The notes under the pieces were generated by a model. That model was not told where the DNA came from, made no database searches, and was given only the letters and a program-made list of their open reading frames with translations. A DNA stretch of 64,000 nucleotides from Brachionus plicatilis (Eukaryota; Rotifera; Eurotatoria; Ploima; Brachionidae): the NCBI GenBank assembly GCA_010279815.1, contig QEOQ01000519.1, positions 316,171 through 380,170 on the forward strand, given 5' to 3'. Numbering within the stretch: position 1 is the first letter of the stretch; each line of letters begins with the position of its first letter. This document shows, piece after piece, positions 6,225-49,749 of this stretch. Both the position numbers and the translations under genes were made by a program.

Positions 6225-6296
6225 AGGTTCTACCGATATTTGAACTCGGATCGCTGGATTCAAAGTCCAGAGTGCTAACCGTTACACCATAGAACC
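6225..6296 (-). tRNA. tRNA-Gln: tRNA-Gln(UUG), T-stem variant, possibly inactive
   Basis: Differs from the other five copies by one base: the T arm reads CCGAG-TTCAAAT-ATCGG instead of ...CTCGG. This replaces the conserved G53-C61 closing pair of the T stem with a G-A mismatch, and it also falls in the Pol III B box. The rest of the cloverleaf is intact. It may be a decaying copy. Confidence 0.85.
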
Positions 6297-6646
6297 TTGT
6301 TATTGAAAATAATTTTTTTTTCAAGAATTTAGTTAATTTGGCCATGATTTTGTCAAAAATTTCAACTAAAATAAGAAGTAACTTGTGCACTTATTTTATT
6401 TTTAAAATTCAAAATGGTATCCTGCATCCAAGCAATTGTTTTTTTGTTTTAAAAATAATAATTAACAGAAAAAAATTTCAACCATTTCTTGTGATTTTTT
6501 ATTTTTTTGAATATTATCATAAGCAACAAATTTAGTTTAATCATGTGATTGATTCATCAAAAAAACTCAATAAAGCATTTTTCTAACTAAGCTAAACATT
6601 TAAAAATTTAACTCAAAATTATTTAGATTCATATTTTAATATTACA

Positions 6647-15940: not shown

Positions 15941-17866
15941 ATGAGAACTTTCATATTTGCTGTTTTACTGTTTACTGCTTTGATACAAGTAAATCAAATC
16001 AATCACCTATTTGAAAAAATAATTGAGAAAAAAATAACTTTTTTAAAGAATATCGAAGCTAGTGGCAAAATAGCAGTTCATCTCAGATCTTACACAAACC
16101 CAACAGACAAGGACTATCACGGAAACTGTTGTAATGGAAATCTTCTTAGAGCAAACAACAGCTGTACTTTAAAATGTAACACTCTGGTTACTCTTTGTTT
16201 AGACAGCTACCAAAGGTTTTTATTTTTTTCTAATTAAATAAATTTAAAATAAAAAAGAATAAAATTTTTTTTGTAAATTTAAAGTAATGCTGATTTTAAT
16301 GTGTGTCCGTATGGAAGACGCAGCTTGTCAGCTATAAACGGTGCCAGTAGCATGATATTTCCGACGCCAATTGCTGGCGATACCGAAAATCCGGTTCTTT
16401 TAGAATTTAGCGGAAATTATCAAGTAATTTTTTTTATTTATTATTGGGAAAAATTGACTAAAATCTTTTAAAAGGCAAGCGGATATCGTCTTAAAATTGG
16501 AATTTATAACGAAATTACATCCAGATTAAACCCTATAGACTTTATTCGCATTGATTTTAGGATACAAACTCCTTTCAATTTGCAAGGAGCTTCTGGTCCA
16601 ATTTATTACACCATTCCTTCATTTGGCAATCGAACAACTGTGTCGGCAACCAAGTAACTGATTAAATTACTCTAATTAAACAAGCTAACCAAATAATTTA
16701 GTATTACGGTTGGAATCACTTCATTCTGTGACAACAATTGGTATGATGAAGGGTGCAATACAAACTGTGTTCCACAGGATTCATGCGATGGTCACTATAC
16801 CTGTGATCCGGTAAGCGGCAAAAAATTGTGTCTAAATGGCTACTCCGGTCCTGAATGTGACATAATTGATTTCAACATCAATGGATGCACTTCTGAGCAA
16901 AGTAATAATTTTGAACAAAAATTTTGTTCTCTATTTTAAACTTTATTTCTATTTAAATTAAAACAGTCAGTAAGTTTTTGCAAATAGATAAATTTTAACT
17001 TGGCACAAAGTTTTTTAGATGTATCACAAAATTATAATATGTGTTTTTTAAATATAATTGTGTAGGATTTAGACAAAAAATAAATTAAAAAATCACCAAA
17101 AAAATATTTTATTAAAGATCGGGGTTAAAATTGTTAAGTCACCTTTTTATTTGCCTAATTGGGTATTAGATTATTTTAATGGGTTTTATAGTTTTTTATT
17201 ATTTTCTTATGATGTCATTAAAGTTAATAATTAATAAAGCAAATTGCTGATTTTTTTTTCTATTTAGACTCACAGTGTAACTTTATAAATGGATCATTTT
17301 GTTTCGTGTCTTCTCAATCACCAGTTTGCTGCTGTCCAAAAGGTAAATCAAAAATCTAAATAAAGAAATAAATTTTTTAAAAATTTGTCAAGGCTTGGGA
17401 GGAATATCTTGTTCAACCATTTTAAATTGCCATAGCGATACATGTCTTAATGGAGGCACTTGCACTTCGAATAGCCAAGGCCATTTAATCTGCCAGTGTC
17501 CGCCAGGGTAACAGCTAAATGATAAAAAATTTCTCAAATTTTAACTTAAAAAAATTTTTTCTAGAACGTTTGGCTTTAGATGCGAAAAGCTATGTCCTTC
17601 TGACTTGTACGGACCATATTGTAATATAACATGTCAGCAGAGCGATGATTGCGTCAATGGACACTGGACTTGTGACAACAATGGAAATAGAATATGCCGA
17701 ACAAACTGGATTGGCTCTAATTGCAATCAGAAGTCAGTCCAACCAATGTTTGATCCAGATTGTCCCAACAATTTGGCCACAAACGGAGGATGCTACAATG
17801 GCGGAACATGCTTCAACAAACAATGCTGTTGTCCGACCGGATTCAGTGGTCTATACTGTGAAAATC
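15941..17866 (+). other. MNNL-DSL-EGF-EGF-DSL head of the giant protein
   Basis: The first exons read [13 protein letters not shown]...GNCCNGN...[17 protein letters not shown], the Cys pattern of the MNNL (C2-like) domain of Delta/Jagged. DSL 1 is [20 protein letters not shown]...GHYTCD...[12 protein letters not shown]. Two EGF modules follow (exons 5 and 6), then DSL 2: [10 protein letters not shown]...GHWTCD...[12 protein letters not shown]. Both DSLs have the same extra Cys before the GHxTC segment, which suggests one arose by duplication of the other. Known Delta/Serrate/Jagged proteins have one DSL. Confidence 0.82.
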
Positions 17867-20800
17867 GAATAGACAATTGTGTGTCTCACCAATGTCAAAA
17901 TAATGCTGTATGTATTAGTTCATTAAGTGGCTACAACTGCTTGTGCCAGTCTGAATTTACTGGCCAATATTGTGAAACACAAGTCAATTTATGCAGCTCT
18001 GTTTCATGCAACAATGGTGTTTGTATTCCCCAACCAGGAACTGTTCAAGGTTACCAATGCAATTGCAATCCAGGATGGACTGGACAGTCTTGCAGTGTAG
18101 TAGCAGACAACTGGTAAATAAAGCCAAATAATGCATTTGAATTTAACTAATTTTTTTAATTATTTAAAATTTAAGTGCTTCTTTTCCTTGCCAAAATGGA
18201 GCTCTATGCACAAGTGGTCTGAACACATATACATGCGCATGTAGACCAGGTTTTCAGGGTAATAATTGTGAAATTTTGATTGATGTTTGCGGATCAAATC
18301 CATGCAGAAATGGAGGCACTTGTTTTGGATCATTGAATCAATATTTGTGTGGTTGTCCGCTTGGTTATGGTGGTTCAGACTGCTCGATAATTTACGATTT
18401 TTGCCAGCCAAATCCGTGCTCTCGAGGAACATGTACCAGCATTGCAGGAATTGGCTTTGTGTGCACTTGCCAGCCAGGCTATACAGGTCAGTATTGTAAC
18501 CAGCCGATAAACTACTGCTCTTCGAATCCATGCTTAAATGGCGGATATTGTACCAACACAGCCAGTGGCTACACTTGTGATTGTAGCAGCAATTATCAAG
18601 GAAACAATTGTGAAAATCAAATTGATCCATGCTCATTGACCACATGTTTCAATGGAGGAACTTGTCTTTCTAATTCGACCACTGCTTATTGTATATGTCC
18701 TCCAGCATACTCGGGACCTTTATGCAATTCATTGATTCAAGTCGATTTTTGCTCATCAAACCCTTGCATTAATGGTCTTTGCTTTCAGAATACCACCGGG
18801 TACCAATGCAACTGCTATCCGAACTATACGGGCTTGAATTGTGACATAATGGTTGACTCATGTGCCAGCTCTCCTTGTCTTAATGGCGCTTCTTGTAGAC
18901 ATTTTGGAAATGCTTTTTTTTGCACATGTCCTCAAGGTTATTCAGGGGTGAGATGCGAGGTTAATATTGATATTTGCCAACAATTCTCACCGGCATGTCT
19001 CAATGGCGGCACTTGCATCAGCCAGTCAAGTAGTCAATTTTTTTGCCAGTGTCCTTTGGGATTCACAGGCACCAGATGTGAGACAAATGTTTGCCTAAAT
19101 GCTTGTGGCATAGGCAGTTGTATTCCAACAAACACTGGCTTCAATTGTAACTGTCCATTTGGCTACACTGGAAATACTTGCTCGCAGTTGATCAATCTCT
19201 GTGCGTCCAATCCATGTGGTGCTGTACGTATATCAACAACAACAAAAAATAATTTTTTTTCTATTTTTAAAATTTGTTAAATATATTTTTTAAGAATGGC
19301 ATTTGTAGTCAGAGTTCAAACTTTACAGTCAGCTGTCTGTGTTCTCCAGGCTTTACGGGTCCATTTTGTGCGCAACAAGTTAATTTTTGTGCCAGCCAGC
19401 CATGTACCAATGGTGGTTTATGTACATCAACTCAAAATGGATTTAACTGCACTTGTCCTGTGAATTTTTACGGCCCCAGATGTGAATTTAGAAGATACGC
19501 TTGTGATAGCNNNNNNNNNNNNNNNNNNNNNNNNNNNAAAATTATTTTTATTTTTTCTATTAAAGTCCATGTCTTTATAATGGTCTTTGTGTGTTGTTGA
19601 ATAACATTAATCTAGATGGATATCGATGCATATGTCCAGTTGGCTACACAGGTGACAGATGTCAAATTGTGGTAAATCCATGTTCGATTACAACGTGCTA
19701 CAACGGAGCTAGTTGTTTAGTTCAGAATATAACATCAGCAGTGTGTGTATGCCGACCAGGATATGCTGGCCTTTACTGTGAACAAGACATACCAGAGTGT
19801 TTGTCTCGGCCTTGTTTCAATGGAGGCACTTGTACTGAGCCTGCACCAGCCACTTTCCAATGTACATGTCCATCAGGTAGGCAACAATTTGAAAAACTTT
19901 AAATTATAAAAATAACTCTAAAAAAAATGTTATCTAGGTTACACTGGTACTTTTTGTGAGTTAACTGTAAGTGTCTGTCAAACACAAAATCCTTGTCAAA
20001 ATGGCGCCTTGTGTTTTGATACGTTCAATAGTGGTGTTGGCTTCACTTGTTCATGTTTAGCTGGCTACACAGGAAATCTTTGTCAGACTGTGATCAATTT
20101 GTGCCAAATTAATCCATGTCAAAGCGGTGGAACTTGTAATCAGCCATCGCCAGGTCAATTTTTTTGCACCTGTCCACCAGGATACACTGGTTCGACTTGC
20201 TCAGTCATGTTGAACGGTTGTAATAGCAATCCATGTCTAAACGGTGCCACATGCTTTAATAATTTGGGTAGCTATACTTGCCAATGTCCGATTGGCTTTA
20301 GTGGACTCAATTGTCAGACAAGAATTGATCCATGCAACTCAAATCCTTGCTCAAATGGCTTTTGTTCCAATTTGAACAATTTTCAATACACTTGCAGCTG
20401 CTTCCAAGGATACACAGGTCCAAATTGCAACACTGTCATCGATTTGTGTGCCCAAAATCCTTGTCGCAATGGCGGAACTTGTAGACAAACTGGTCCAGGT
20501 CAATATTCATGTCAATGTCCATCAAGTAAAAAAAGAAAAGAGTGAAATTAATTTTTTTTATTAAACATTTTTTCATTAAAGATTACAATGGGTTTAACTG
20601 CGAGAATTTAATTAACTTCTGCGCTTCAAGTCCATGTCATAATAATGGCTTGTGTATTAATAACGCCACGGGTTTCTCGTGCATTTGTCCACCTTTGTTC
20701 ACTGGTACATTTTGCAACATTCAAGTGAACCCGTGCACCAGTTCACCTTGTGGAAACGGCCAATGCACTAGCTTCAATAATGGAACATACGGATACTTTT

Positions 20801-23800
20801 GTACATGCTTGCCTGGTTTCACTGGCCAAAAGTAGCTATCCAAAATTCAATAATAATTTTAATAATTTAATTTAATTCAATTTTTTTTTTCTTCTTCAAG
20901 CTGCATGACCATTTTTAATCCTTGTGCTTCAAATCCATGCTTTAGCGGAATTTGTGTGCCATTCGGAAATAATTTTGCATGCAATTGTAACTTTGGCTAC
21001 ACTGGCCAACTATGCAATGTTCTAATAAACAATTGTGCCAGTAATCCGTGCAGAAATGGTGGTTCTTGTAACAATCTAATAGGAACATATGTAAAATTTA
21101 TAAAATTTTGTATTCTTTTTCTTAAATAATTTTTTTTTAGCAATGTTTTTGTCCAGCTCCTTACACAGGCTCTCAATGTGAGACATTCATTGACTATTGT
21201 CTAAGTTCGCCATGCGGTTTTGGCGGTTCTTGTTCATCCTCTGGTGGAGTAGTTCAATGCACTTGCCCTCCAGGCTACACAGGAACATTTTGCAATTCAA
21301 TAATTAACTATTGCAATTCATCACCTTGTGCAAACGGAGGTGTATGCTCGCAAATTGTCAATGGATACGTGTGCAGCTGTCCAATTGGCTTTACTGGTCC
21401 AACTTGCACCATTTCAATAGATCCTTGCAGCTCTGTGACTTGTTTGAATGGCGCTACATGTGTCCGAGTTCCAGGCCAATTTGACTTCAATTGTGTTTGC
21501 CGTACCGGCTTTACTGGACGCTTCTGTCAGAATTTGATCGACAATTGTTTGAGCAATCCGTGCCGAAATGGCGCCATTTGCTACAATTCTCTTAATTCCT
21601 ACTCATGCAGCTGTTTAGCTGGTTTTACTGGAATCAAGTAATATTTAGCAAAAAAATCTTGATTTGAAAAAATTTTATTATTTAAAAAAAAAATTAAGCT
21701 GTGAAAATCGAATCGATTACTGCAATCCAAATCCTTGTTTTAATGGATTGTGTACTCAGAGTGGTAGCTCATATGCATGTGTATGCAATCCAGGCTACAC
21801 TGGCACCAATTGTAATGTGCTTATCAATTATTGTGCCAGCCAGCCTTGTATAACAGGAATATGCATTAACAACTCGACCCAAGGCATTTACACTTGTCAA
21901 TGTCCACCTAACTACTATGGGACAAATTGCCAACTTAGAATCATGGCTTGTTCGTCAAATCCTTGCCTAAATGGAGCCAGCTGTTTCGAGTTAAATAATG
22001 GAGGATATAGTTGTGTTTGTCCCCTAGGCTTTACTGGTCCTAGATGCGAAAATCAAATTAATTTTTGTCAGACAAACCCTTGCAATTATGGTGGTACTTG
22101 TATTCCTTTGGTCGGATCATTTAATTGTATCTGTCCAGTTGGTACAACTGGTACTGCTTGTCAACAAAGTAATTACTCTTTTTTATGGATTTTTTTTTGT
22201 ACTCAACAAAACAAAAAAACTTCGAAAATAATTTTAGGAAAAGTGAATATTTATTAAATTGCACAATTTTTTTAGAAAAATAAGATAGAAAAAACAAATC
22301 GTTTTTTATGTTTTTTTATTATACAAATTGACACTGGATTCAGTCTTTTTTGGACCTGATATCTTTTTTTATTTAAATCATTTTTTTTAAATGGTTTGAA
22401 TGGAATTTTCATTTTTTTACAGAATTTTATAGTTATTAAATTTTCATATTTTTTAAACCAAGATAATAACTATTAAAATTTTGAGCTACTTTTGGATGGA
22501 TAAAATTTATGTCAAGAATGAATTTTAATATGCATTAACCGAATGAGTTTTAGACTTAAACAAAAAAAAAATAACGTCAATTATCACATTTATTTTTTAA
22601 GTTTTGATTTATCTTTAATTGACCAAAAATCTCAATAATTTTAATCTAAGCAAAAACTGATAAATACTTAAATTAACTACGAAATTTTGAAAAAAAACTA
22701 AAAAAAATCTGGCTTTCTAGTGTTAATTCAAAGACTAATCATTCTAGAATCTCTAATATTTCATAATATTAAAAAAAAATGAAAAGCTTTTTTTCTTTTT
22801 TTTTATTTAAATTGACCGGCAAGCGGTCCTTAATTAATTAAAAAAAAAGAAAAAAATATAAAATAGAGTCAAATTGAGTAGAAAATTTAATAAAATAGTA
22901 CAAGAAAAAGAAGACATTTTTTAGATTTGTAGAGTTACATTAATTTGATAAAAAAAGATTTGAATAAAATGATATAAAATATTCTTAGAAACTTAAATTT
23001 TCAAACTTTAATAGGCTAAATAGCTCAGCTGTAAAGTACCTCTTTGACACATTTTACCTTCTCACTTTCAAGCAAGGAAAGCTGTTTTATTTTTAAAGTA
23101 GAATTGTGTTAAAAATTGCTTGTTTTAGCTGACAAATTTCCTTTTTGAACTGGATTTTTTGATTAAAAATTTAAAAAAAACTAAAAATTAAAATATCATC
23201 TTAAGATAGATAAAAAAAGCTTAAAGATTAAATTTTGTTGCCATTTATCCGAATAAAGTTCTCCTTTTAGTTATTCTATTTGTTAGAGATGAAGTTTTTT
23301 TTTTAATTCTTTGTTGTGTAAAAAAATAATATTTTTTATCTAGTTGTTGACATTTGTGCATCGAATCCATGCTTAAATAATGGTGTTTGCTCACGTACAT
23401 CAATTGGCACATTTACTTGTGTCTGTCCAGCCGGATACACTGGTCTTCTTTGTGGATCAATAATAAATGCATGTCTATCAAACCCATGTCTGAATGGAGC
23501 CACATGTCTCCAACAAAATACAAAGTAACTAAACAAATTTAAATAATTAATAATTATTTTCCATTTATTTTTCAACCACAGTTTTGCTTGTGTTTGCCCG
23601 TTCGGATATACCGGTCCAATTTGTAGTAGTATAATAAATCCATGTTTGTCATCACCTTGTTTCCGTGGAGTCTGTAACAATTTTGTTTCGAGCTACAAGT
23701 AATTTAAAAATTTAGATAAATTAGAAATAAATTTTTTTTCAAAAATTAGCTGCACCTGTAATCCTGGTTGGACTGGACCAAATTGCAATGTCCTCGTCGA

Positions 23801-26800
23801 CTATTGTCTCAATTATCCATGCCGAAATGGAGCTACATGCGCATCAGGATTGAATTCGGCCACTTGTGTCTGCCCTGCTGGATTTACCGGGACATTTTGT
23901 GAAAATACAATTAACTTTTGTCTTAGTGCTCCGTGCCTAAACAATGGCATATGCACGTCGACAAGCTCAGGTTTTGTCTGTCAGTGTCTACCAAATTTCA
24001 CTGGCCGAAATTGCGAGATAAGCATAAGTGTTTGCTCATCTCAACCGTGCCAAAACGGTGGTCTTTGCTTTCAACTATCTCCCACATCAGGCTACACTTG
24101 CACTTGCTTAGCTGGCTGGACCGGAACAAACTGTCAAATAGCTGTGAATGTCTGTGAAAGTAACCCTTGCTCTAATGGTGGTTTGTGTAATCAACAAGGA
24201 GCTAATAGATACAATTGTACTTGTCCCTCAGCCTGGACTGGATTTAATTGCGAAGTTAATGTTAACGAATGTTTGAGTAGTCCGTGTAGAAATAACGGTA
24301 TCTGTCAAGACTTGGTTGGTGGTTATGTTTGCACCTGCTCGCCTGGCTATACGGGGCAATTCTGTGAAATAATGATCAATGTTTGTTCATCAAATCCTTG
24401 CTTAAACAATGCGCTTTGCCAAAATTCTCTTAACTCTTGGACTTGTAGATGTCCACCTGGTTACACTGGTACTAGATGTGAAAGCATTATAAACTATTGT
24501 CTAAGTAATCCGTGTTCACCAAACGGATTTTGTGTGCAGGGTGTTAATTCTTACACATGTAATTGTAACACCGTAAGTCAAAGTTTAAATTATAAAAAAA
24601 TAGTTTATTTATTTATTTTATTAAAATAATTAAAAGGGTTATGGAGGTCCGAACTGTAATGTGATTATTAATTACTGTTCGCCAAATCCATGTGTCAATG
24701 GACAGTGTAATCAATTGATTGGTGGATTTCAGTGTCAGTGTCCGCCGGGCTATGCTGGTTTAAGATGTGAAATTTACATTAGTCAGTGTGATTCAAATCC
24801 ATGTCTTAACAATGGTATCTGCAATGACAATGGTGCCGGAAGCTACACTTGCCAGTGTTTGACAGGCTATACCGGAAACAATTGTCAGACTTTTATCAAT
24901 AATTGTTTTTCATTGCCTTGCCAGAATGGAGGATCATGTCAGCCCATTGTCAATGGGTACAATTGCATTTGTCCAGTGGGCTACAGTGGTCCAAATTGTA
25001 ACATCATAGTGGATCCTTGTTCATCAAGACCATGTCTTAACAATGGACTTTGTTTTAATTCGACATTTACATACAGTTGTGTTTGTTTACCTGGTTACAC
25101 CGGATTTAAGTAAAAATTTAAAAAATAATTAAAATTTTTTAATATTTTCTTTTACTCTAGCTGTCAAAATTTAATAAATGTATGTCAACCTGATCCATGT
25201 AATGGCCGCGGTATATGCAACCAACTAGGAACTTCTTATCAATGGTAATAAATTTTCCAATAATCTAGAATAAAATCTCAAATTAAATTATTTAAAAGTA
25301 CGTGTAATTTCGGCTTTACTGGCACCAATTGTGAGTTGGTCATAAATCCATGTAGCCAAAATCCATGTGTCAGAGGAAACTGCAGTTCTCGTAATAAAAA
25401 ATTTTTCTTTCTAAAATTTTAATAAATGTTTAATTTTTTTCGTATTTAGCATCACCTGGTTCGTATCAATGCACATGTCCGTGTGATTTTACTGGCACCA
25501 ATTGTCAAACACAAATAAATTTTTGTTCCATAAACCCATGCATTAATGGTGGAGCATGTCGAAATTCAGGATGTGGACTAATGTAATCAATTGGCGCCTA
25601 CGAAAATAAATAATCAATTAATTTTAATATATTTTTTAATAGTTGCATTTGTCCAAATGGTTTTACTGGATCAAGATGCGAGACACGAATAAGCTTTTGT
25701 GATTCTTTCCCATGCTTTGGTGGCGCAACTTGTGTAGATCAAATTTTCGGCTACACATGCACATGTCCACCAGGATTTTCCGGATTAAACTGCAATATTC
25801 AAATAAACGTAAATATCTAAATTAAAAAATAAACTTTTAAAATTAAATTCACTAAAAAAATTTTTTTTTTAAGAATTGCGATTCATCGCCATGTCTAAAT
25901 GGTGGAAGCTGCTTGAACACATTGAATTCCTATGTGTGTGCATGTCCTAACTCTTTCACTGGTCTCAGATGTGAGTTTAGAATTAACAATTGTATTAGCC
26001 AGCCGTGTCAAAACAATGGCACTTGCAACGAGATAATCAATGGCTACGCTTGTTTGTGCCCTGCTGGTTACACTGGAACAAATTGTGAACAAACAATCAA
26101 TCTTTGCACCACTCTACCTTGCTACAATCAGGCTACATGCTTGCCTACACTTAACGGATTTACTTGCATTTGTTCTGATGGCTGGACAGGGACTCGATGT
26201 GATATAAGAATAAACAACTGTGAAAGTTCGCCGTGTCTTAACAATGGTATATGCTCATCCATCGGTAACTCCTGGAGGTAGTTTTTTTTTTTGCTTTAAA
26301 TTTAATAAAGTTAATTTTTTTCTTATTAGCTGTACCTGTATTTACCCTTATTCAGGTGTAAATTGCGGAACCAATATTGCATGTAATCAAAATCCATGCC
26401 TTAACTCAGGTGCATGTACAGTGTCAAATATTAGCCCATTTTTTCAGTGTCAGTGTCCGCCTGGCTACTCAGGACAACGATGCGAAATAAGAGCAAATCC
26501 TTGTGCCTCAAGTCCATGTCAAAATGGAATTTGTGAAGATTTATTGACATCGTATAGATGTACTTGCTTCAATGGATTTACTGGAACTAATTGTCAAACA
26601 TTGATTGACTTTTGCGGAAGTGGACCTTGTATAAATGGTGGAACTTGTTTAACATCCATTCCTGGAACATATACTTGCAGATGTCCTCCTGGTTTTCAAG
26701 GAACTAATTGTCAAACTGTAATAAGTTTGTGCTCCGTTGGAATATGTCTAAATGGTGGTACTTGTACTCAAATTGGATTAAATTTGACTTGTAATTGTCC

Positions 26801-32800: not shown

Positions 32801-35800
32801 ACAATTGTAGAAAAATTCTAATATTTTTTACATATTGGTTTTATTTAAATATTTTAATTGTTATTTAGGCTTTGTCGGTCAAAGATGTGAAGAGAGAATA
32901 GATGAATGTGATAGTAATCCATGCCAAAGTGGTGGAACATGTCAACAAATTCTCAATGGTTTAGGCTTTAATTGCTATTGTCCTATCGGATACACTGGGC
33001 CCGTATGTGAAATTAAAATAAATTATTGCACAGATTCAGTGTGTAAAAACGGGGCTGCATGTGTCGAAAGACCACCAGGTGGATATGCCTGCACTTGCTT
33101 GCCTGGATACACAGGGTTCGACTGTAGTATTCAAATAAACTAGTAAATTTTAAGCTTAAAAATAAAATCCCGAAAATTTAATATTTTCTATTTAACAAGT
33201 TGTCAATCAATACCATGTCTAAATGGCGGTTCATGCACTCAATTCTTAAACGGATATTCATGCACGTGTCTACCAGGCTTTACAGGCTCAAATTGTGCAA
33301 TAAGAATAGCTCCATGTCAGAGCTTTCCGTGTAGAAATGGTGGAACTTGTGAAGATCTAAATAACGGAAACTATCGATGTTTGTGTCCATTTAATTACAA
33401 TGGAACAAATTGTGAATTGACCATAAACTTTTGTGCAAGCAACCCTTGCTTTAATGGCGGATCATGTATATCGAATTCACAAACAGCAAGCTATACGTGC
33501 CGATGTCCATCTGCTTATACTGGCATTAGATGCGAGTCATCAGTTAATTTCTGTATTTCAAACCCATGTCGAAACAATGGTGTATGCAATTCTGTATTAA
33601 ATGGCTACTTCTGCACTTGCCTTGTCGGTTTTACTGGAACAAATTGTGATTTCACAATTAACTATTGTGCTACAAATCCATGTCAGAACGGTGCCACGTG
33701 CATCAGTGGCAAACCATTGCCGAATATGTATCAGTGTACATGTGCGCCAGGATTCTTTGGAACCAATTGTACAATTCAACTGAATCCATGCCAAAATAAT
33801 CCATGCGCTCCCAACGGCATTTGTTTACCTTCCAACAACAATCAGGCATTCGAATGCAAATGTAATGTTGGCTACACTGGTCCCTATTGTGATCAAATCG
33901 TAGACGCTTGCACCATCAACTCTTGCTTGAACGGCGGCACTTGTATTACCACTGGAGCTAATCAATTTATATGTAGATGTTCATGTGGCTATACTGGTAC
34001 TAACTGTGCTGTGCCAGTCAATTATTGTGAAAATAGACCTTGTCTTAACAATGGAGCATGTACTTCTTCACCTGTTAGTTGTACTTTCCAATGTACATGT
34101 CCGATTGGCTTCCAAGGTTTAAGATGCGAAAATGTTATGAACCCATGCGACTCAAATCCATGTGTAAATGGATTCTGCTCGCGACGCATCAACGAATATT
34201 CATACACTTGCATTTGCAATCCTGGTTTCACGGGTCCTAATTGTAATTTACAAATTAATCTTTGCACAGCAGATTCTTGTAAAAATAATGGCTTATGTGT
34301 ATCTGGCGGAACATCTTACAACTGCAATTGTTTACCAGGTTACACGGGTTTCGATTGCAGTTTTACAATAAATCCTTGTGTTTCCAACCCTTGTCAAAAT
34401 GGTGGTACATGTGGTCAAAACGGAATTAACTCATATACTTGTTCGTGTTTGCCAGGATTTTTCGGAACAAAGTAAACATTTTTTTTTTAATATTCTACAT
34501 ATTCTACAATAATAACTACACATTAAAATAGTACCATTTAAAATAGACTTATTCTCAATAGCTTAGCAAAAAAGCAAAAAAGAAAAGCAAATTTAATCAT
34601 TTAAATGATTTGATTAATCTCTTCAGAAGGAGCAGGAGTTTGAAAAATTAATATTGAAAATTCAAGTTTGAGTTTTGTATTTTTAGATTTAAATTAATTC
34701 CGCATTAAGAATTTAAAAAAATGATAAAAGAAAAATACATTTTAAATTAGGCTCAGCATAACCACATTCGAGCTAATCTTTTATCAAACAGATGAGAAAA
34801 TCAGATAATTTAGCAAAATAAATTTTATTTTATGATTTTTAAAATAATTAAAAATTTAGATTTGAATATTTTGAATTTTTTATATCTTAATTTTGATCTT
34901 TTAATATGGTCGTTTTAATCAGTCTATTTTCAACCCAACATTTTTTCTTAAGAAATAAGGAAACTTCAAATAATTTCATACATTTCAAATAAGTTTATTT
35001 TAACAAGAAATATATACATAATCTACATAGGTTTAAGGACTTGAAATATTAAAATTCATTCTATTTTAATCTCGTTTGGTGCTCTTTGATGAATACACTT
35101 TAAATAAATGTGTAAATTAAAAGCAAGATCGATCGTTACTTTTACGTTTTAAGCTGCTAACAGTTGACATTGTGATAAAACTATTAGAAAAATAGGAATA
35201 GGAAATCTAATAAATATTTTTCCAGGAGAAAATGGATGATTCATTGAATAAAGTTTTTAGATTTAGATAAAGTTTATTTTTCTGAAGGGAGAAATTTTTT
35301 ATCGGTACTATGATAAATGGAATTCTTTTTTTTTGACTGATGTTTGAGTGAAAATAAACAAAATAGTAAATAAAATAAATAAATAGAATGTTTTCTTTAT
35401 TTTTTACTAATTGTAATTTTCTTTAAAAATATTTTTCCGTTTGAGTCCAATGGTATGAGATGAATTAGACTTATGAACTTATCTCTTTGTGGACTTATGT
35501 TTTTTCTCTTTTTTTGATCAATGTAAGATTGATTAAAATGAAAATTTAAAAAAATAGATAAATGTTTTTTTCTCATTTTTACTTTTGTTTATTTATCTTT
35601 TAAAAAAAAAAATTTGATTCATGTGAGCTTCTCTATTTTCATGTTTTAGCATCTTCTTTATTTGTTTTTTTCTACCTCATCCCATTTTTTTCGTTCTAAG
35701 ATTGAATCTAAGATTCTTCAATTCTACAATTGTAGATACAATTTTTCAATTCTACAATTGTAGATACAATTTTTCAATTCTACAATTGTAGCTACAATTT

Positions 35801-38800
35801 TTCAATTCTACAATTGTAGATATAATTTTTCAATTCAACAATTGTAGTTACAATTCTACAATTGTAATAAGACAGTTGAAAATTAATTAAAGTAAATAGT
35901 AAACATTTAATTTATGAGTTATAAGAAAAGAAAGAAAACATTCTATTTATTTATTTTATTTGTAATTTTATTTATTTTAACTCAAACAATTCTTCAATTT
36001 TAATTACATTTTAAAAAATCTTCATTTGATATAGAATTTATTAAAAAAAAAAAGAAAAAAAAAATTAAAAATATTTTTATTGAATATTTTAGTTGTGAAC
36101 AACGCAATAATCCATGTGGATCCAATCCATGTCAAAACGGCGGAACCTGTGCCCAAGTGAGTGCAATATCATACCAATGCATATGTCCGGCAGGAACTAG
36201 CGGTGTCAACTGCCAGGTCATAATCAACCTGTGTCCGTCATATTGTCAAAATGGCGCCAGCTGTCATTTCCTTGGATTAAACAACTACCGATGCACATGT
36301 CCATCGGGCTACACAGGCACCCAATGCCAATACCTGATCAATCCATGCATCAGCCAGCCATGCCTCAATGGAGCCGGATGCTTGCCGACCAGCGTGCCCG
36401 GCCAATACACATGCGACTGTCTAAGCGGCTACACTGGATCCAGATGTGAGACAATGATCAACTACTGTGCCAGCCATCCATGCCTAAACAACGGCGTGTG
36501 CACCCAAAACGTGCCCAACTTCTTTTTCTGTTCGTGCAGACCGGGCTTTAACGGCACTCGATGCGAAAACCAACTGAGCGCATGCGCGTCCCGACCATGC
36601 CAAAACGGCGGACAATGCCTCGACCGAGTGGTCACCTACCAGTGTCTATGTCCCGCCGGCTACACCGGCTCCAACTGTCAAACAGTGATCAACTACTGTG
36701 CATCGCAGCCGTGCCAAAACAGCGGCAGATGCGTGTCCCTAGGCCTTAACCAAATCCGGTGCGAATGCAACGCGGGCACAACAGGAACCTTCTGCGAAAT
36801 CATAATCGACACATGCGCCAGCAATCCGTGCGGCAACCAAGGCGTTTGCCAGCCATCTCTCAACTTCTACACATGCTCATGCTTTCCGGGCTTCACAGGC
36901 ACCAACTGTCAAACCCAATTCAGCACATGCTCGTCCAATCCGTGCCAAAACGGCGCCAACTGTGTCCAGCCCCAGGCCAATTTGTTCCAATGTCTGTGTC
37001 GGCCCGGATTCACGGACAACCTTTGCTCGACAAACATAAACGACTGCACATCCAATTCGTGTCTTAACGGCGCAACATGCATCGATTTGGTAAACGCGTT
37101 CGCCTGCAATTGCGCGCCCGGCTTCTACGGCTCGAACTGCGCGCTCCAAATTAACCCGTGCGCGTCCAACCCGTGCACATTCGGCTCATGCACTCAATTG
37201 AGCGCCAATTTCTACACATGCACATGCAGACCGGGCTACACCGGTTCCAATTGTCAGTTGACCATCGACCCGTGCTCTTCATCGCCATGTCAAAATCAAG
37301 CGTCGTGCATCTCGTTCGGCACCACGTTCACTTGTCTCTGTCCGCTGGGCACAACGGGCACTCTTTGTCAGACCGTCATAAACAATTGTGCGTCCACACC
37401 TTGTCTGAACAACGCTCAGTGCTTTTCGTCGATTGGCATGTACACGTGTCAGTGTCCGAGCGGATTTAGCGGACGGCGTTGCGAAATCCGTGATGCGGCG
37501 TGCACACCGGGACTGTGTCAAAACGGCGCCACATGCATCGACACTACCAGCTCGACGGGCTACCTGTGTCAATGTGCGGCCGGCTTCACGGGCCAATTGT
37601 GTCAAACTAACGTAAACGAGTGCGCCAGCTCGCCGTGCTTCAACGGAGGTTCGTGCGTCGACCGCATAAACGCCTACGAGTGCTTTTGTCAGCCGGGCTT
37701 CAACGGTCTGAGATGCGAAGTGGAACAAAACGATTGTGCCAGTTCGCCGTGCGTGACCGGTACGTGTGTGTCGCAGCGGCCGTTCGGCTATCGGTGCCAG
37801 TGTCCGCCGGGCCGCACCGGTCCGTTGTGCGAGCTGCGCGTCGACGAGTGTCAGTCGATGCCGTGCAAGAACAACGGTTTGTGTGTGGCATTGAATCCGT
37901 TCGGATTTCAGTGCGAGTGCTTGCCGGGCTATCAGGGCATGTTCTGTGAGATTGCGGTGAATTTGTGCGAGTCGAGTCCGTGTCTGAACGGCGCCACGTG
38001 CATCCAGACAAATACGTCGGCGTGGCAGTGCAGCTGTCGATGCGGCTACACGGGCACCCGGTGCGAGCTCGTCGAGAACGAGTGCGCGCACAGTCCGTGC
38101 TTGAACGGCGGCACTTGTACCAAGCCGAAGCCGTGCGGGTTCGTGTGCGCGTGTCCCCAAGAGCCGGTCGCCTACTACGGCGCCATTTGCGAGAACCTGG
38201 TGCCGGTGGTGTCGCCGCCGCCCGTCTGCATTTACTCACAACAAGAAACGTTGTATTTGCGCGGCACCGCTGATCAACTTGCTAGATTGAGATTCGACGA
38301 CATTGTAGACAATGTGTACGCGGCCTACAACGCCGAGAACGTAAACAACCGTAATGTGTGTCCTGGTTTATTTTCGTTAATCGGCAACGCTTGCTACCGA
38401 GTGCTGTCGGACGCCGACTACGACTGGAATCAAGCGCGCTCTCAGTGTTTAGTGTTGGGCTCGCACTTGGCCTCGTTTGGCTCCGGCGACGAGTTCAACT
38501 TTGTGCGCCAGTGGCTGAACGGCGAGCTGACGAACACGCGCGATTTATGGATCGGCGCCCGACAACAATACTCGAACTGGTACTGGCAATCGAACAATAC
38601 GCTCATAGCGTCGTCGTTTTTGAGCTCGTATTGGGCGCCGGGCAGCCCTGCGTCAAATGCGCAGCAAAACGCTCTGCTCCTAAGACGACAATTCGGCTAT
38701 TTGATTGCGAACGAGGCGCCCGAGCGACGCGCCTACTCCGTTCTGTGCAAACGAGACGCGTTCCTCTTCGATCAGTCGAACACCAAATTGAGCTTGTTGG

Positions 38801-41800
38801 AGACGATACGCGCTATTGATAGTAATGGCGCGCCTGTTCTCGCCTACAGGTTTTCTACCAATGTGACCCAAGTAGGTGATACGATTAGTCACGTGTCGAC
38901 GCCGACGTTGAACACGTATACGTCGATTTTTTCAATGATGCCCATAGACTACGCCAATTTGTTCACCGATCAATCGTACGCGTACTCCAGTCCGTACATA
39001 GTCTCGCTGTGCAACGACTTGACTCTAAGTCAAATTGAACAAGTGCGCACCACCATAGTCAACAGTTGGCTGAGCGTGCGTCAAGAGCTCAGAGAGTGCA
39101 ATTGTTTTAACATTTACACAGTGGCCGTGGACAAGTACACGGGCGCCAACAATCAGATAAACACCCAAGTGACGTATGTGGCCAAGGCGAGAGACTTGAT
39201 AATCGAAAGCGAGAGCAGTGACGTGAAGCCGAGCTATGCCCAAGTGTATTCGGCGTTGCTGGGCGCCGGATTCAGCCAGTGCGCGGGCAGGAGTAAACGA
39301 TCGTCGCTGCTGGACGTGGCCGTGGCCCAGTCGATTGTGCAGTCGGACATCCGACAATTAGAGGTCAAGGTCGAACAAAGCATGTACGCCATTCGGCCCG
39401 ACTGGCTCACTAACAAACGGTCCGTCCGCGTCAACGCCGTCTCCAGCTTGGACGCTGTCGACCTGGCCAGCAAACAGCCCATCACCAAGGTCTATCTACA
39501 AGCAAGCGTAGACAATCAAGTGTACGATTTTTACACACAAACAGACTTTGACACCACACGTCTCATTGACCAATTGATCTATCAAAACGAGAACACGTCA
39601 CTTCATCTCAAAATACTCAACTCGGATCAAATCTATTCGAAAAATTATTTTTTCACCTTTGTCTCAACTCATCGGATACAAGGCGATCACTACGCGTTGC
39701 TCCAGAACGCAACACGCCAAAAATTTTTGCACCACTATCCTCAATTTGGCAGCCAAGTGATCACAGTGAACACCACACGACAACAAGAGTACGTGGACAA
39801 GAGCAGACAAATATTGTACGGCCTAAATGTGCTAATAAGCATAAATGAGCAGCCGGTCGACAATGTGCTGTCCATGGACCGGAGCATATTCGACCAGATG
39901 ACCATTGAAGTGAACTCTGGTCTGGTGTACAAACTGAGCGTGCCCAGAGAGGACGCCTATCTCGAGCCATTGGACAAAGCGTTGGTATTGTTCAGCAACA
40001 TTAAGGTGGTGAGACGGGATTTGGAGCGCATGGAAAGCTTTATGCTGAAGACAATTGAGGAGTATGAGCCCGAGTTGGCCGGCCGCATTCACCTCCTGCT
40101 CGCCAGTCAACAAGAGTATGTGGACCAGAGTGGCAAAGCCTACTGGAAGCTGTTCGTGATCACAACACTTAAATCGGACAATTCGTTGGTGGACTTAAGG
40201 ATGCAGAGCTCCAATATAGTCGGCGAGTTCAAGGCCAAGCTTAACTTTTTGTCCGCCAACGGCAACGAGTACATCTTGGTGGACAGTGTGACTCAACTAA
40301 TGGACATGAAGAGAGGCTTTAGTGTGTACGTGCAGGGCAAGGTCAACGACATACACAGAAACGTGATACACCAGGCCATAGTGTACACATGGAACATCAC
40401 TGCCTACCAGACCAAAAACTATGTGGACTACTACGCTAGCAATTACGTGTTCACTTTTGTGACACAGCCGAGACTTGAGGTGGACGTGGCCGGCAATTTG
40501 CAGACCAGAATTGTCTACTTTATTTTGTCGAATGGACGGCAGGTTGATCAGGACGAGTTCGAGCTATTGCCCAAAGTAACTTGGTTGCAGGACTCGTTTG
40601 TCAAGTTCGACTTGCCCTATTCGTTGTCGAGTGGCAATGACGCCAGTGCCAAAGAGTATGACAGCTTGTACTATGCTGACTTTAACGGCTATGTTGATCC
40701 GAGCGATGAGAGCAAGATCAGCGAGCTTGTTTTGAACAAGTTCAGAGAGGTCTATTCGCAGATTGAGTTTATTTCGTTGACATTTACCATGAAAGAGAAG
40801 AGAATTGGTGAGCTAGGCAACAATGTGACTAGATTAATGTACTTTTTGGAAGATCAGGACGACAATGTCATTGATTCACATGAGTTTAGACCACCTACTA
40901 ATGAGATAAATGTAAGCAGTTATTTTAGTTTATTTGACAAAAAATACTACTTATGGAATGAGGAATTATGATGTTTTAACAAATTTATTCAAGTCGGTTT
41001 TAGATTAGATTATTATGCTGTTTAATATTAAAATTTAATCCAAGTAGTTTTTGTGGCGGCCACATGATCTTTTTGCCGTTCCAAGTAGTTTTTGTGGCGG
41101 CCACATGATCTTTTTGCCGTTCCAAGTAGTTTTTGTGGCGGCCACATGATCTTTTTGCCGTTCCAAGTAGTTTTTGTGGCGGCCACATGAATTTTTTGCC
41201 ATTCCAAGTAGTTTTTGTGGCGGCCACATGATCTTTTTGCCGTTCCAAGTAGTTTTTGTGGCGGCCACATGATCTTTTTGCCGTTCCAAGTAGTTTTTGT
41301 GGCGGCCACATGATCTTTTTGCCGTTCCAAGTAGTTTTTGTGGCGGCCACATGAACTTTTTGCCGTTCCAAGTAGTTTTTGTGGCGGCCACATGATCTTT
41401 TTGCCGTTCCAAGTAGTTTTTGTGGCGGCCACATGATCTTTTTGCCGTTCCAAGTAGTTTTTGTGGCGGCCACATGATCTTTTTGCCGTTCCAAGTAGTT
41501 TTTGTGGCGGCCACATGAACTTTTTGCCGTTCCAAGTAGTTTTTGTGGCGGCCACATGATCTTTTTGCCGTTCCAAGTAGTTTTTGTGGCGGCCACATGA
41601 TCTTTTTGCCGTTCCAAGTAGTTTTTGTGGCGGCCACATGATCTTTTTGCCGTTCCAAGTAGTTTTTGTGGCGGCCACATGAACTTTTTGCCGTTCCAAG
41701 TAGTTTTTGTGGCGGCCACATGATCTTTTTGCCGTTCCAAGTAGTTTTTGTGGCGGCCACATGATCTTTTTGCCGTTCCAAGTAGTTTTTGTGGCGGCCA

Positions 41801-44800
41801 CATGATCTTTTTGCCGTTCCAAGTAGTTTTTGTGGCGGCCACATGAACTTTTTGCCGTTCCAAGTAGTTTTTGTGGCGGCCACATGATCTTTTTGCCGTT
41901 CCAAGTAGTTTTTGTGGCGGCCACATGATCTTTTTGCCGTTCCAAGTAGTTTTTGTGGCGGCCACATGATCTTTTTGCCGTTCCAAGTAGTTTTTGTGGC
42001 GGCCACATGATCTTTTTGCCGTTCCAAGTAGTTTTTGTGGCGGCCACATGATCTTTTTGCCGTTCCAAGTAGTTTTTGTGGCGGCCACATGATCTTTTTG
42101 CCGTTCCAAGTAGTTTTTGTGGCGGCCACATGATCTTTTTGCCGTTCCAAGTAGTTTTTGTGGCGGCCACATGAATTTTTTGCCGTTCCAAGTAGTTTTT
42201 GTGGCGGCCACATGATCTTTTTGCCGTTCCAAGTAGTTTTTGTGGCGGCCACATGAATTTTTTGCCGTTCCAAGTAGTTTTTGTGGCGGCCACATGAACT
42301 TTTTGCCGTTCCAAGTAGTTTTTGTTTAGCAAAGAGAACTAATGCGTTAAAAATTAAATTTATTCTAGAATAATTAGCAGAAAGTGAATTTAATAATGTA
42401 TTTCAGAAAAAATTAAATGGTATAGTAAAAATGTATTTAGCTTGAATACGATTTTTTATTTAAAAAAAAAGTTTTCTCAATAAAATAAATATCTCTAAAA
42501 ATAGTTTCAGATAATAAATGAAAATAAAAAGATTTAGCTTTTTAATATTTATTTAACTCTAGATTGCTTATTTTTCTTACCGTTTAAGTCCGGAATGAGT
42601 AAAAACCTTTTTTAATGCAATCTTATTAGACTCTAGAAATTAAATTAAATTTGTAAAAAAATAATTGAAGTTTTACATTTAAATTAGCCTAAAAGCTGAA
42701 GCAAATTTTCCTTTTCAATTGTTTAACCAAAAATTTTTCCAAAACTTTACACCTAAATTAAATGTAAAAATTAGATTTTTTTACATAGAAAATAACTTTT
42801 ATAAATAAAATTTAAAATTTTAAATAATTTAAAAAAAAATCATTTTTTTTAAGATTTAAAAATATTTTAATGCATTATCGCCTTAATCAATTTAAAAAAA
42901 AAAAATATATCAATTATTGTGAAATTGGAAAAACAGGAAAATTTATTTGATTAATTTATAAAACTGGAAAAAAAATCGACTTTGGAATATCGGAACTTCG
43001 AGTCAACAAGATTAACACAATTTAATATTTTAAAATACTTTAAGAATTTTCTAGTCATGTCATTAATCTTGAAAAAAAATTGAAAAGTTTTTAGACTTTC
43101 AAAAATAAAAAATAAAATCTTTTGACTTTTGAAAAAAAAAAGTCCAGACTTGTGACTTTTAGACAACTCTGGATAAAATAAAAAAAATCCAAAAAAAAAA
43201 GTTTAAATTTTTTCACAATTTTATTGAATATTTTTTGACAAGAATAATTCCTCCAAAAAACAAACCATTAAAAAAAAAAATTTAATAATTATTTTTTATC
43301 TTAACAGAAAGAGCTAATAAGCCACAAATTCTCAGTGTACGAGCACAGCTCACAAGCTGTTGACGAATTCTTTGTGGCCTACATCAAAGGATGGTACGAA
43401 AACACCGATTTACAAATAACCGATTTGATTTCCTTGTTCTTCAATTCAGAAGGTAATCAAATAATAAAATTAAAAAAAAAAAAAAAAAAACTTAAATTTA
43501 ATTTCAATTTTTTTCCAGTTTTGAACTCAACTAAGCTGAATGGTGAAATTGTGATGATGGAACAATTTCTAAATTCCCACGAAGTGCCATTCTCAAAGAT
43601 CTACTTGCGAATCAGCGGTTTTACCAGCGTTGAAACAGTCAAGACCATCGGCCGCAGAATGTCCAACTCAAGAATCATCATGGCAAAATCTGGCTCATCA
43701 AACACCACATCGGACACTCTAGCAAACGACAATCTTTTGTACAAAGTAAGAACTGTCTTCTTCGAAGAAGCGCTGCCAACTTATTCCAAGCAAGTCTTGA
43801 ACATAATCAAGCGAGCCTGGTTGTCCAAGATAGACCAGCGTCAATTTGACTCTCAAAATGGCCTGAGAGTGTCTGTGTCCATTGTAAATGTGGCCCACTA
43901 CATAAACAACTTACAAAGTGAAGTATTAGGCTTCAGCTACACTGTGTCCGTAAATGGCCAGGACCCAGAATCCATACCGATAGCAGAGCCGACCTATGAC
44001 GCATTCAAAAAAGAGACACAATCTGAACCAGGCGTCCATTTAGTCTTTAGTCCTTACAACGCCTATGAAATTGACCGAGTCTACATTGTCACTGAGCTTA
44101 GTGACACTGAGCTCAACAAAGTGCTAAACTCTGTTCTGGCTGAGTCATGGAACGCGATGAACACCCATGTCAAATATGTGGCTAAAAATAGAATTACTGA
44201 CATAAAGATAATTAAAGATGGTCTAATTACCAAAGAAAACAAGAGGCTGCTACGCGTCTCTTTAACCTACTTGGTAGATGGCAATGTACCCAACCCGATC
44301 AAGTTTACCAAGCCGACTGTATCAGACTTGATTCCACTATTGGCCAAGTCAGCGGTTATGGTCTATGATGACATGGCACTTTTGCCACACAACATTGTCA
44401 TATCTAACTATAACGAGTCCTTGAATGACAGACTCGAGTCGGCCATTGTACAAGCTTATTGTGAAGAAAACCCAGATGTCAACTCGGATGTGTTTTATGT
44501 AGAAGTAGACAGAGAAAATAGCAAGCGATCAGTTGACTTGGACAGTGAGGCCCGTGTTGGATACAGTGTTGGCATAAGTGACCAAAGGTTCGATGTGACA
44601 GACATTCGAACACCAAGTGCAGAGAGTTTACAAAGAGCCATTAGGGCTCAAGTGCCTGATGTTGTTTTTGATCAAGAATCAGGAGAGCATTTTAAAAAAA
44701 GCAAAGAGAGCGCCATTTTGACGGTAAAATTTTTTTCCAATTAAATTTTTGTTTTTTCAAAAAGAGTTTATTTTATTTTTAATTTAGAATAATGTGGCCA

Positions 44801-44946
44801 TAATTGCTGGCTCTGTTGTCGGAGCGATTTGTGTTGTTGCTCTTTTGGGCGTTGTTATAGCAGCTTTAGTCAAACGAAATGTCACCAGGTATAGACCTAG
44901 GTCCTCGACAACCACGACACAATACGCCTATGAAAATAGACATTAG
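15941..44946 (+). CDS. Giant dual-DSL, about 124-EGF, lectin-domain type I membrane protein
   Basis: Type I surface protein of about 6,520 residues with a Notch-ligand-type N-terminus. Exons: 15941-16215, 16285-16423, 16475-16653, 16702-16901, 17268-17342, 17393-17507, 17565-18113, 18176-19223, 19295-gap, 19566-19876, 19938-20525, 20582-20831, 20901-21090, 21141-21637, 21699-22168, 23344-23524, 23582-23698, 23750-24572, 24637-25109, 25161-25244, 25299-25390, 25450-25582, 25643-25808, 25874-26277, 26330-28061, 28117-28243, 29113-29944, 30012-30127, 31163-31452, 31504-31691, 31752-32581, 32869-33142, 33200-34471, 36093-40911, 43308-43452, 43519-44723, 44788-44946. All junctions are GT/AG and every phase closes; only exon 9's end is lost in the N gap. 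Order: signal peptide 1-19, MNNL about 40-190, DSL C207-C250, two EGF, DSL C338-C381, about 122 EGF, C-type-lectin fold, unrecognised alpha/beta region, membrane span, 24-residue tail. The start at 15941 was preferred over an upstream in-frame start at 15884 because [16 protein letters not shown] is a proper signal peptide. There are no LNR or ankyrin repeats, so it is not Notch. Notch-ligand function is inference. Confidence 0.87.
19511..19537. other. Assembly gap of 27 N inside the giant gene
   Basis: Falls at the 3' end of exon 9, just after ...ACDS. By phase and the module pattern, two coding bases and a GT donor are missing before the intron that ends at 19565. True gap size is unknown. 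Confidence 0.95.
22169..23343 (+). other. 1.2-kb intron of the giant gene
   Basis: Bounded by GT at 22169 and AG at 23342-23343 in phase 1. AT-rich with no gene. A weakly tRNA-like word near 23018 (TAGCTCAGCTGTAAAGTACC) is considered under rejected items. Confidence 0.75.
28244..29112 (+). other. 869-bp intron of the giant gene
   Basis: Phase 1, GT...AG. It contains a single CTACAATTGTAG palindrome near 28985, the same word that forms clusters in two later introns. Nothing else recognised. Confidence 0.75.
30128..31162 (+). other. 1-kb intron of the giant gene
   Basis: Phase 1, GT...AG, very AT-rich. No repeat or frame of note. Confidence 0.75.
32604..32815. repeat. CTACAATTGTAG palindromic satellite in an intron
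   Basis: Irregular tandem array of TTCTACAATTCTACAATTG-type words, including four exact CTACAATTGTAG 12-bp palindromes and GTAGCTACAATT links. It fills most of the 287-bp intron between the exons at 31752-32581 and 32869-33142. Confidence 0.85.
35341..35990. mobile_element. Intronic TIR element enclosing a palindrome satellite
   Basis: The left arm TGTTTGAGTGAAAATAAACA ... AATAGAATGTTTTCTTT (35341-35399) is matched in inverse on the right (35930-35988); the inner 31 bp (about 35368-35398) are perfect or nearly so. The middle holds the 28-bp satellite at 35716-35868. No coding frame. No clear target duplication. Confidence 0.65.
35716..35868. repeat. 28-bp CTACAATTGTAG satellite
   Basis: About five copies of a 28-bp unit, CAATTCTACAATTGTAGATA plus CAATTTTT, with small variants. 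The unit core is the same 12-bp palindrome as at 32604-32815. Confidence 0.85.
38356..38760 (+). other. C-type-lectin-like domain of the giant protein
   Basis: [20 protein letters not shown], then [47 protein letters not shown] and finally YSVLCKRD. The outer fold landmarks (WIGA, W-x-P-G-x-P, the last Cys) are present. The inner Cys pair and the EPN/QPD and WND calcium/sugar motifs are missing, so it is probably a protein-binding fold and not a sugar-binding lectin. Confidence 0.8.
41040..42328. repeat. 41-bp minisatellite, about 31.5 copies
   Basis: Unit CCAAGTAGTTTTTGTGGCGG followed by CCACATGATCTTTTTGCCGTT. Copies are almost identical; the main variable site is ATGATC versus ATGAAC or ATGAAT. 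In copies 1-20 the variant sits at every fourth copy (4, 8, 12, 16, 20), a 164-bp higher-order unit. Copies 28, 30 and 31 also carry it. The array is GC-richer than the AT-rich intron around it. Confidence 0.97.
43080..43175. repeat. AAGTC/GACTT-rich dispersed repeat
   Basis: Ends with GACTTGTGACTTTTAGACAA CTCTG. Closely similar text occurs at 60143-60246, and in inverse at about 45270-45345; a shorter relative is at 63225-63285. This suggests a short dispersed family. Confidence 0.45.
44788..44946 (+). other. Transmembrane exon of the giant protein
   Basis: NN then [26 protein letters not shown] (one hydrophobic span of about 26 residues), a basic stop-transfer [10 protein letters not shown] and a tail [13 protein letters not shown]. 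The tail of about 24 residues is too short for a known signalling domain and has no obvious PDZ ligand; YAYENRH is its only Tyr-containing motif. A possible poly(A) signal (aataaa) is near 45157. Confidence 0.85.
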
Positions 44947-45356: not shown

Positions 45357-45480
45357 TCGGCCGTCCTATGTAATAATTAAGGTGGCCAAATAAATTTTTT
45401 GCCGTCCTATGTAATTAATAAGGTGGACACGTGAATTTTTTGCCGTTCCATCTAGTTATTAAGGCGGCCATTTTTATTTC
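45357..45480. repeat. Diverged copies of the 41-bp minisatellite
   Basis: Two to three old units: CGGCCGTCCTATGTAATAAT ... AAGGTGGCCAAATAAATTTT, TTGCCGTCCTATGTAA ... GGACACGTGAATTTTTTGCC, GTTCCATCTAG ... AAGGCGGCC. Period and word order match the intronic array 3 kb away, in the same orientation, with heavy divergence. Confidence 0.75.
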
Positions 45481-48963: not shown

Positions 48964-49749
48964 TTTAGTTTAGTTTTAAGTTTATTTGGTCTAAAATTAA
49001 TTAATTTCTTTATTAAATTAAAGTAAAATGAAACAAAAACGTAAAAATTTAATTTTCAAAATTTGATTTGTAATTGGTTTAGTATTATTAGACATTTAGT
49101 TATGTAAAACTAAATTCATAAATGTATTAGTCGAGTAATAAAAAATTATTTCGAATATCATGCTTTTTAAAAATTTATTTTTCATTTTAAAAAGCAAAAC
49201 TTTTGTCTCAAAATTTTCTTAACTAAAATTTTAAAATAAATTTTTCATTTCAAAATTTATTAAAAATTCAAAAACCAAATAAAATTTACATCAAATTTTA
49301 ATTCTTAAAATTTTTAAATTTTGAAAAGAAAGATTCAAATTGGGTAAAATTTTTTTAGAATCTAAAAATAAAATTTAATCATGTGATCAACTAAGCACAA
49401 CCCTAAAAATTGGTTCATATCTTCCTTTAAATATTTTCATATACATAAAACATAAGAAATTCATTTAAAAAATAATAAAATATAATTCAATAACACTTTA
49501 TTTGATGGGAGTGTCATTGACCATTCTGATCATCAAGAGTAGAGTCAAACTATTTTTTAAACAAAACAAGAATTTCCATAAAGGTTATAAATTTTTGATT
49601 AACAATTAAGCTTTTAAATAATTTTTTGAAAATTTAAAGGTTTTTTTTTTCTTAATGAGTAAAAAAAAATTAAACAATTAAAATAAAGTCGATACAATTG
49701 AATTAAGAAATTTTGATGTAAACGTAAAAAAGCCAATTTAAAGACCAAG
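48964..49749. other. Intergenic, nothing recognised
   Basis: AT-rich space between the divergently transcribed PSMA3 and the orphan gene at 49750; it should contain the promoters of both, but no motif stands out. Confidence 0.6.

Follow-up and report, generated by a model that had tools for sequence, protein, structure and literature searches.

Within a window of 64,000 nucleotides of Brachionus plicatilis (i.e. the whole stretch of DNA analysed, positions 316,171 to 380,170 of contig QEOQ01000519.1), positions 15941-44946 of the forward strand form one gene of 38 exons for a membrane protein of 6,500 amino acids (aa), which runs from a signal peptide through MNNL, a DSL domain, two EGF repeats, a second DSL domain, 122 further EGF repeats, a C-type-lectin domain and a SEA-like row to a membrane span and a 25-aa tail. 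With moderate confidence, this protein is taken to be a giant surface filament that derives from a Notch ligand and is processed by furin, rather than a canonical activating ligand. If this is true, a signalling ligand has been put to new use as a giant filament on the cell surface, its binding module having been duplicated and apparently stapled.

Exon threading, guided by reading phase, splice signals and codon usage, gives a start codon at 15941 and a sole stop codon at 44944-44946. Four spots in the program's output needed manual correction, namely the start codon, an N gap, the join of exons 35 and 36 (where the program had run through a 41-bp minisatellite) and the part from exon 36 to the stop (where the acceptor of intron 36 was reset and spurious introns were removed). 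A preliminary description of this DNA had proposed a single gene with these coordinates and about 6,500 residues, which the independent threading bears out, although 38 exons were obtained instead of the 37 then counted.

15941..44946, + strand: whole gene, 38 exons, 6,500 aa (splice threading)
19511..19537, no strand: gap of 27 N between exon 10 (end 19510) and exon 11 (start 19567)
41039..42325, + strand: 41-bp minisatellite in intron 35, 31 copies (Tandem Repeats Finder)

Thirty of the 37 introns measure 48-71 bases and the remaining seven 287, 366, 869, 1,035, 1,175, 1,621 and 2,396 bases. EGF repeats split by the introns of 869, 1,035 and 1,621 bases are made whole by the exon joins, which favours a single coding unit up to exon 35; intron 16 (1,175 bases) sits between two EGF repeats, and its join is backed by phase only. 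Support for the join of exons 35 and 36 is indirect and comes from phase 0 on both sides and from an alignment in which the part after the lectin domain runs collinear with a paralog elsewhere in the genome (C47, see below). Joins 36/37/38, the membrane span and the tail are confirmed by the B. plicatilis protein BpHYR1_020147 (P0004), which shows 99% identity across 99% of the exon 36-38 query (406 aa) and a tail that matches except for one residue. That the region is instead read as two or more transcripts, e.g. with the EGF part terminating in intron 34 or 35 and exons 36-38 forming a gene of their own, seems improbable. This alternative would agree with the public record itself, in which the last three exons appear as a hypothetical protein of 519 aa, the first 17 of which are not shared with the present gene model, as well as with the 1.3-kb minisatellite inside intron 35 and the ability of exon 35 to read on to a stop at 40969. 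However, the contig of that record (24,846 bases) is shorter than the whole gene, the EGF repeats are complete only when joined over the long introns 27, 29 and 34, the collinearity with C47 crosses the exon 35/36 boundary, and a stand-alone gene of exons 36-38 would (by eye) have no signal peptide. The case also shows how giant genes can be split up in public annotation, since the last part of the present one has been deposited as a separate hypothetical protein.

As regards composition, exon 35 (36093-40911) has a G+C content of 52%, compared to 41% in the other 37 exons pooled and 20-33% in windows outside the gene. Just behind the gene lies a short 41-bp array resembling the minisatellite of intron 35 (45360-45470), and introns 32 and 34 contain arrays of a palindromic CTACAATTGTAG-type unit (32603-32806 and 35687-35867).

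The protein carries the marks of a DSL ligand, i.e. MNNL, DSL, EGF repeats and one membrane span, and its head is laid out as follows:

15941..16063, + strand: signal peptide, aa 1-21 (exon 1 and the start of exon 2, intron included; by eye, a hydrophobic stretch after Met)
16064..16720, + strand: MNNL (C2-like) region, aa 22 to ~184 (Pfam and PDB phmmer)
16727..16861, + strand: DSL 1, seven cysteines (Pfam DSL, cysteine count)
16862..17586, + strand: EGF 1 (seven cysteines, CCC) and EGF 2 (sequence reading, cysteine count)
17593..17733, + strand: DSL 2, seven cysteines (Pfam DSL, cysteine count)

Pfam finds MNNL (51.8 bits over aa 21-119, cut-off 22.5), DSL twice (63.1 bits in two stretches, cut-off 24.2), EGF and, on an isolated piece, Lectin_C. 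Scanned exon by exon, both DSL domains exceed the cut-off singly (46.1 and 36.6 bits), and a six-frame search of the genome recovers both, at 16727-16861 and 17593-17733. In the PDB (phmmer), the first 240 aa match Jagged-1 best, at 1.1e-15 over aa 22-231 with DSL1 included, and Delta, Jagged-2, Delta-like proteins and Serrate rank below it. The start as first described (signal peptide, MNNL and DSL, then a second DSL after two EGF repeats) thus stands, and so do the roughly 124 EGF repeats and the single span. In the protein pieces scanned there was no VWC domain (the mark of the Jagged subfamily), the gaps between regular EGF repeats being at most 8 residues, and none of the LNR, NOD or ankyrin repeats of a Notch receptor, the tail being just 25 aa long.

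All four DSL domains of the present gene and C47 have seven cysteines, as do all four EGF repeats that follow them, with C-C-C where the fourth and fifth cysteines of these repeats stand. A single further DSL2 (P0011, 77% identical) was found, and it likewise has 7 cysteines in the DSL and 7 in the next EGF; in a single-DSL gene of the same genome (C68) both numbers are 6. The six-cysteine DSL described in the available part of PMC2770060 was not found in the present protein, both DSL domains of which have seven. The odd cysteines come in pairs, which suggests a disulfide staple between DSL and EGF; the pattern is consistent with such a staple lying in the loop that bears the Notch contacts of Jagged-1. 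The [DSL, CCC-EGF, EGF] unit looks as if it was duplicated in tandem before the present gene and C47 parted. When DSL1 is aligned with Jagged-1, Cys-Asp stands at the positions of Phe206-Phe207, which we take to be contact residues. At the position of Arg203, for which the accessible text of PMC5538765 gives a link to Notch recognition, DSL1 has Gln and DSL2 has Ser (by eye). The Notch-contact residues of the DSL loop are therefore not kept, as judged for DSL1 by the Jagged-1 alignment and for DSL2 by eye.

The head is followed by the EGF array:

17734..38190, + strand: EGF array, repeats 3-124, the first with the CCC motif (sequence parse; Pfam EGF on the pieces scanned)

The total of 124 repeats consists of 120 regular ones (counted by script) and four atypical ones recognised by eye (two between the DSL domains and two after DSL2). 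On nine further exon pieces, short exons left out, the significant Pfam matches are EGF-type families. Consensus patterns for O-glucose, O-fucose and O-GlcNAc were used for a motif count, and such sites are present in 76, 49 and 81 of the 120 repeats, compared to shuffle means of 12.1, 12.5 and 0.9, respectively, where the shuffle within loops keeps loop composition only and the EGF family consensus alone would yield some excess. The calcium-binding N-terminal motif (as defined here) occurs in only 5 of the 120 repeats, but of nine array pieces three give a Pfam calcium-binding EGF match above the cut-off, so that calcium may be bound by some repeats; compared to the rod of Notch, the present one may have greater flexibility. 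Repeats 116-121 (script numbering), located before the lectin domain, keep their order in two relatives (6/6 in P0001, 6/6 in P0003); in a third (P0002) 11 EGF repeats were parsed, 10 of them in order (six being 116-121) and one out of order (best match 80), in a comparison that leaves out repeats missed by the pattern or parsed at 45 residues or more. Since the identity between repeats (mean 45%) is flat over lags 1-20 and order is kept in all three relatives, the array appears to be old and maintained. Recent tandem growth is ruled out by the absence of a lag effect over the same range.

Between the array and the stalk lies the lectin domain:

38353..38754, + strand: C-type-lectin domain, aa 5146-5279 (Pfam Lectin_C, PDB)

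Lectin_C reaches 34.7 bits on the isolated piece (cut-off 22.6) but goes unlisted (E 0.001) in a scan of the full frame of 1,655 aa; the best PDB match is the PLA2 receptor (2.1e-10). C-type lectins have EPN/QPD and WND as sugar-binding motifs; by eye, the domain has SPASN in the EPN position and no WND, and EPN is present at that position in the lectin domains of two of three relatives. Another locus with a C-type-lectin domain (C57, an apparent 4,758-aa frame) was rejected as a whole-protein relative, its frame being mostly N and its match covering the lectin region only, at 24% identity.

The remainder of the protein comprises the stalk and the membrane end:

38995..40911, + strand: SEA-like modules, first part, exon 35 (module profile; AlphaFold 2 (AF2), low confidence except at about residues 355-560)
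39289..39300, + strand: furin motif R-S-K-R, aa 5458-5461 (sequence)
43308..44723, + strand: SEA-like modules, last part, exons 36 and 37 (AF2 model, three modules; splicing confirmed by P0004)
44517..44534, + strand: dibasic pair, in 6 of 7 aligned homologs, the seventh being too short (loop position from the model, where the predicted local distance difference test (pLDDT) is <50)
44797..44871, + strand: transmembrane helix (top Kyte-Doolittle windows of the protein)
44869..44943, + strand: 25-aa tail, its sole lysine lying at the membrane edge (sequence)

The long post-lectin ectodomain, called unknown in the preliminary description, looks like a row of SEA/ferredoxin-like modules in the profile and the AF2 models. 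The exon 36-38 model, used for the fold search, has a mean pLDDT of 55.2 (seven sequences) and that of the 888-aa post-EGF part one of 41.8 (four sequences). Pfam SEA gave no match at E up to 1 in two post-lectin pieces, Foldseek by itself none at E 0.001 for the exon 36-38 model, and SEA or membrane-adjacent ferredoxin-like domains (protocadherin-15 MAD12, the Gpr126 ectodomain) reached a Z equal to that of unrelated proteins such as PheRS. R-S-K-R is the sole R-x-[KR]-R in the 6,500 aa and is present in all three relatives that cover the region. Two cysteines lie C-terminal to it, one of them inside the membrane span; the hydropathy maximum of the whole protein falls at aa 6450-6480.

The genome searched (G000, 102.9 Mb, 173 contigs) contains four DSL matches, i.e. 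two in the present gene, one in C68 and one in C47 (its second DSL), and MNNL exceeds the cut-off at three places, which are these same genes. C47 (C47:14128-31871, minus strand) resembles the present protein in its order (MNNL-DSL-EGF-EGF-DSL-EGF array-modules-transmembrane span), in its CCC EGF repeats and in a collinear post-EGF part, the post-lectin region being collinear over C24 residues 3-1152 of 1,168 (E 1.8e-17, 19% identity). In contrast, it has about 41 EGF repeats and a tail of about 160 aa, and no C-type-lectin domain was seen in the threaded protein. A profile scan of C47 gives two DSL stretches (32.7 bits in all), of which the second scores above the first; the first and last exons and the signal peptide of this model, which includes SEA-like modules, are provisional. 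The model of C68 (~1,280 aa, both ends uncertain) has MNNL, one DSL, about 17 EGF repeats, a hydrophobic span and a tail.

Only one Notch candidate was found in the genome, a 978-aa single-exon open frame (within C112:50001-56000, minus strand). By eye it has six EGF repeats, two of which are merged by the script, and it also carries ankyrin repeats, a hydrophobic span and a weak match to NOD. The NOD match reaches 17.7 bits, or 20.5 with neighbours (cut-off 20), and 13.1 bits, i.e. below the cut-off, in the whole-frame scan, where NODP is missing from the matches up to E 1. Because just two cysteines lie between the last EGF and the span, the frame has no LNR; a genome-wide LNR search gave no match, but neither did 14 control genomes, so that the absence of LNR rests on this frame. 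When the last 676 aa of the frame were searched against the genome, with scores for 66 of 76 candidates, 17 matches were obtained, namely the frame itself and 16 at ankyrin level (best other 9.7e-12, 32% identity). The frame is a candidate for a strongly reduced Notch receptor. CSL matches occur at two loci, and the available part of a Brachionus embryo transcriptome study lists Notch among receptors (PMC10821554). Together with the single-DSL ligand, a six-EGF Notch candidate without LNR would make Brachionus a test of which parts of ligand and receptor signalling needs.

With one Notch candidate and CSL matches in the genome, the giant protein could be a modulator that limits Notch signalling, either by binding the short Notch of the rotifer in cis or, once shed, as a decoy. 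MNNL and DSL are kept, the furin motif could free a soluble part, and there is a possible precedent by analogy in Uninflatable, a large EGF/C-type-lectin protein that can limit Notch signalling in Drosophila according to the accessible part of PMC3340373. This reading is nevertheless rather unlikely, as the DSL loop has other residues at the contact positions and the domain set of Uninflatable, as far as that source describes it, differs.

A canonical trans-activating ligand, unusually long and pulled by endocytosis, is less probable still. The MNNL-DSL head is complete, there is one membrane span and the EGF repeats are rich in O-glycan motifs, as would be expected under this reading. Against it speak the changes in the DSL loop, the 25-aa tail with its one lysine, the furin motif and the sheer length, a spacer of 124 EGF repeats plus a furin motif being likely to uncouple force. 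The ordinary form belongs to C68, a putative separate single-DSL ligand that would be free to do the signalling. Overall, the sequence evidence leans against canonical Notch signalling. It should be weighed against the filament reading that C68 likewise lacks the Phe pair, so that the argument from the contact residues is not decisive.

A long array with abundant glycan motifs, a lectin-like domain and a repeat order that has been maintained are all in keeping with the proposed filament. Its ancestor would be a DSL Notch ligand in which the [DSL, CCC-type EGF, EGF] unit was tandemly duplicated and the number of EGF repeats rose to 124; between array and membrane stand a C-type-lectin domain and a SEA-like stalk. 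The EGF rod, rich in consensus sites for O-glucose, O-fucose and O-GlcNAc, would hold the MNNL/DSL tip an estimated hundreds of nanometres off the cell, and the filament would presumably join cell to cell or cell to matrix. A predicted furin cut after R-S-K-R (aa 5461) would part the EGF/lectin portion from the module stalk. Given the one extracellular cysteine past the cut, the two parts would be held together non-covalently only, unless that cysteine forms a bridge or the large part is shed. A bolder reading, no more probable than the canonical ligand, is that rotifer Notch is arranged inside out, with a receptor of six EGF repeats that lacks the LNR gate and the long EGF array placed on giant, furin-cut, double-DSL ligands; the signal would then arise via release of a ligand part or via cell spacing set by the ligand, and not via a force-opened LNR lock.

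Jagged and Delta ligands share with the present protein a signal peptide, MNNL, DSL, EGF repeats and one membrane span. Unlike them, it has two seven-cysteine DSL domains, 124 EGF repeats, a C-type-lectin domain, a SEA-like stalk, a furin motif and a 25-aa tail with one lysine, and no room for a VWC domain between its regular repeats. The preliminary description credited known ligands with a single DSL and no more than tens of EGF repeats, a statement that has to be amended in view of published cases: the available part of Gazave 2009 (PMC2770060) gives 0 to 75 EGF repeats for Delta proteins and Nematostella models with 1 to 11 DSL domains (one being MNLL plus 3 DSLs), for which its authors allow misassembly, and that of PMC4810162 describes a Capsaspora receptor kinase with two DSLs. 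These too have more than one DSL, but no such EGF array, lectin domain or stalk is described for them in the accessible parts of these papers. Uninflatable, too, is a large EGF protein that spans the membrane and has a C-type-lectin-like domain; it differs in its CUB, CCP, FA58C and HYR domains, and MNNL or DSL go unmentioned in the part of PMC3340373 available. The claim that the combination looks new therefore stands in part only: multi-DSL proteins and a 75-EGF Delta have been published, and the full set (double DSL, 124 EGF repeats, C-type-lectin domain, SEA-like stalk and furin motif) was not found in the literature searched. That search returned nothing on rotifer Notch with LNR, only papers unrelated by title on rotifer Notch with DSL, and one paper, unrelated by title, for a phrase search on multiple-DSL proteins. 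The word 'rotifer' is absent from the main text of a 37-species lophotrochozoan Notch survey and of an invertebrate Notch review, and neither 'DSL' nor 'Notch' occurs in a survey of rotifer secretory lectins.

Elsewhere in the window, six tRNA-Gln (TTG) genes lie at 3896-6297 in an inverted arrangement, three on the + strand and then three on the - strand, and a tandem duplication of 273 bp, with copies 97% alike, is found at 49831-50325 within an open frame (49717-50745).
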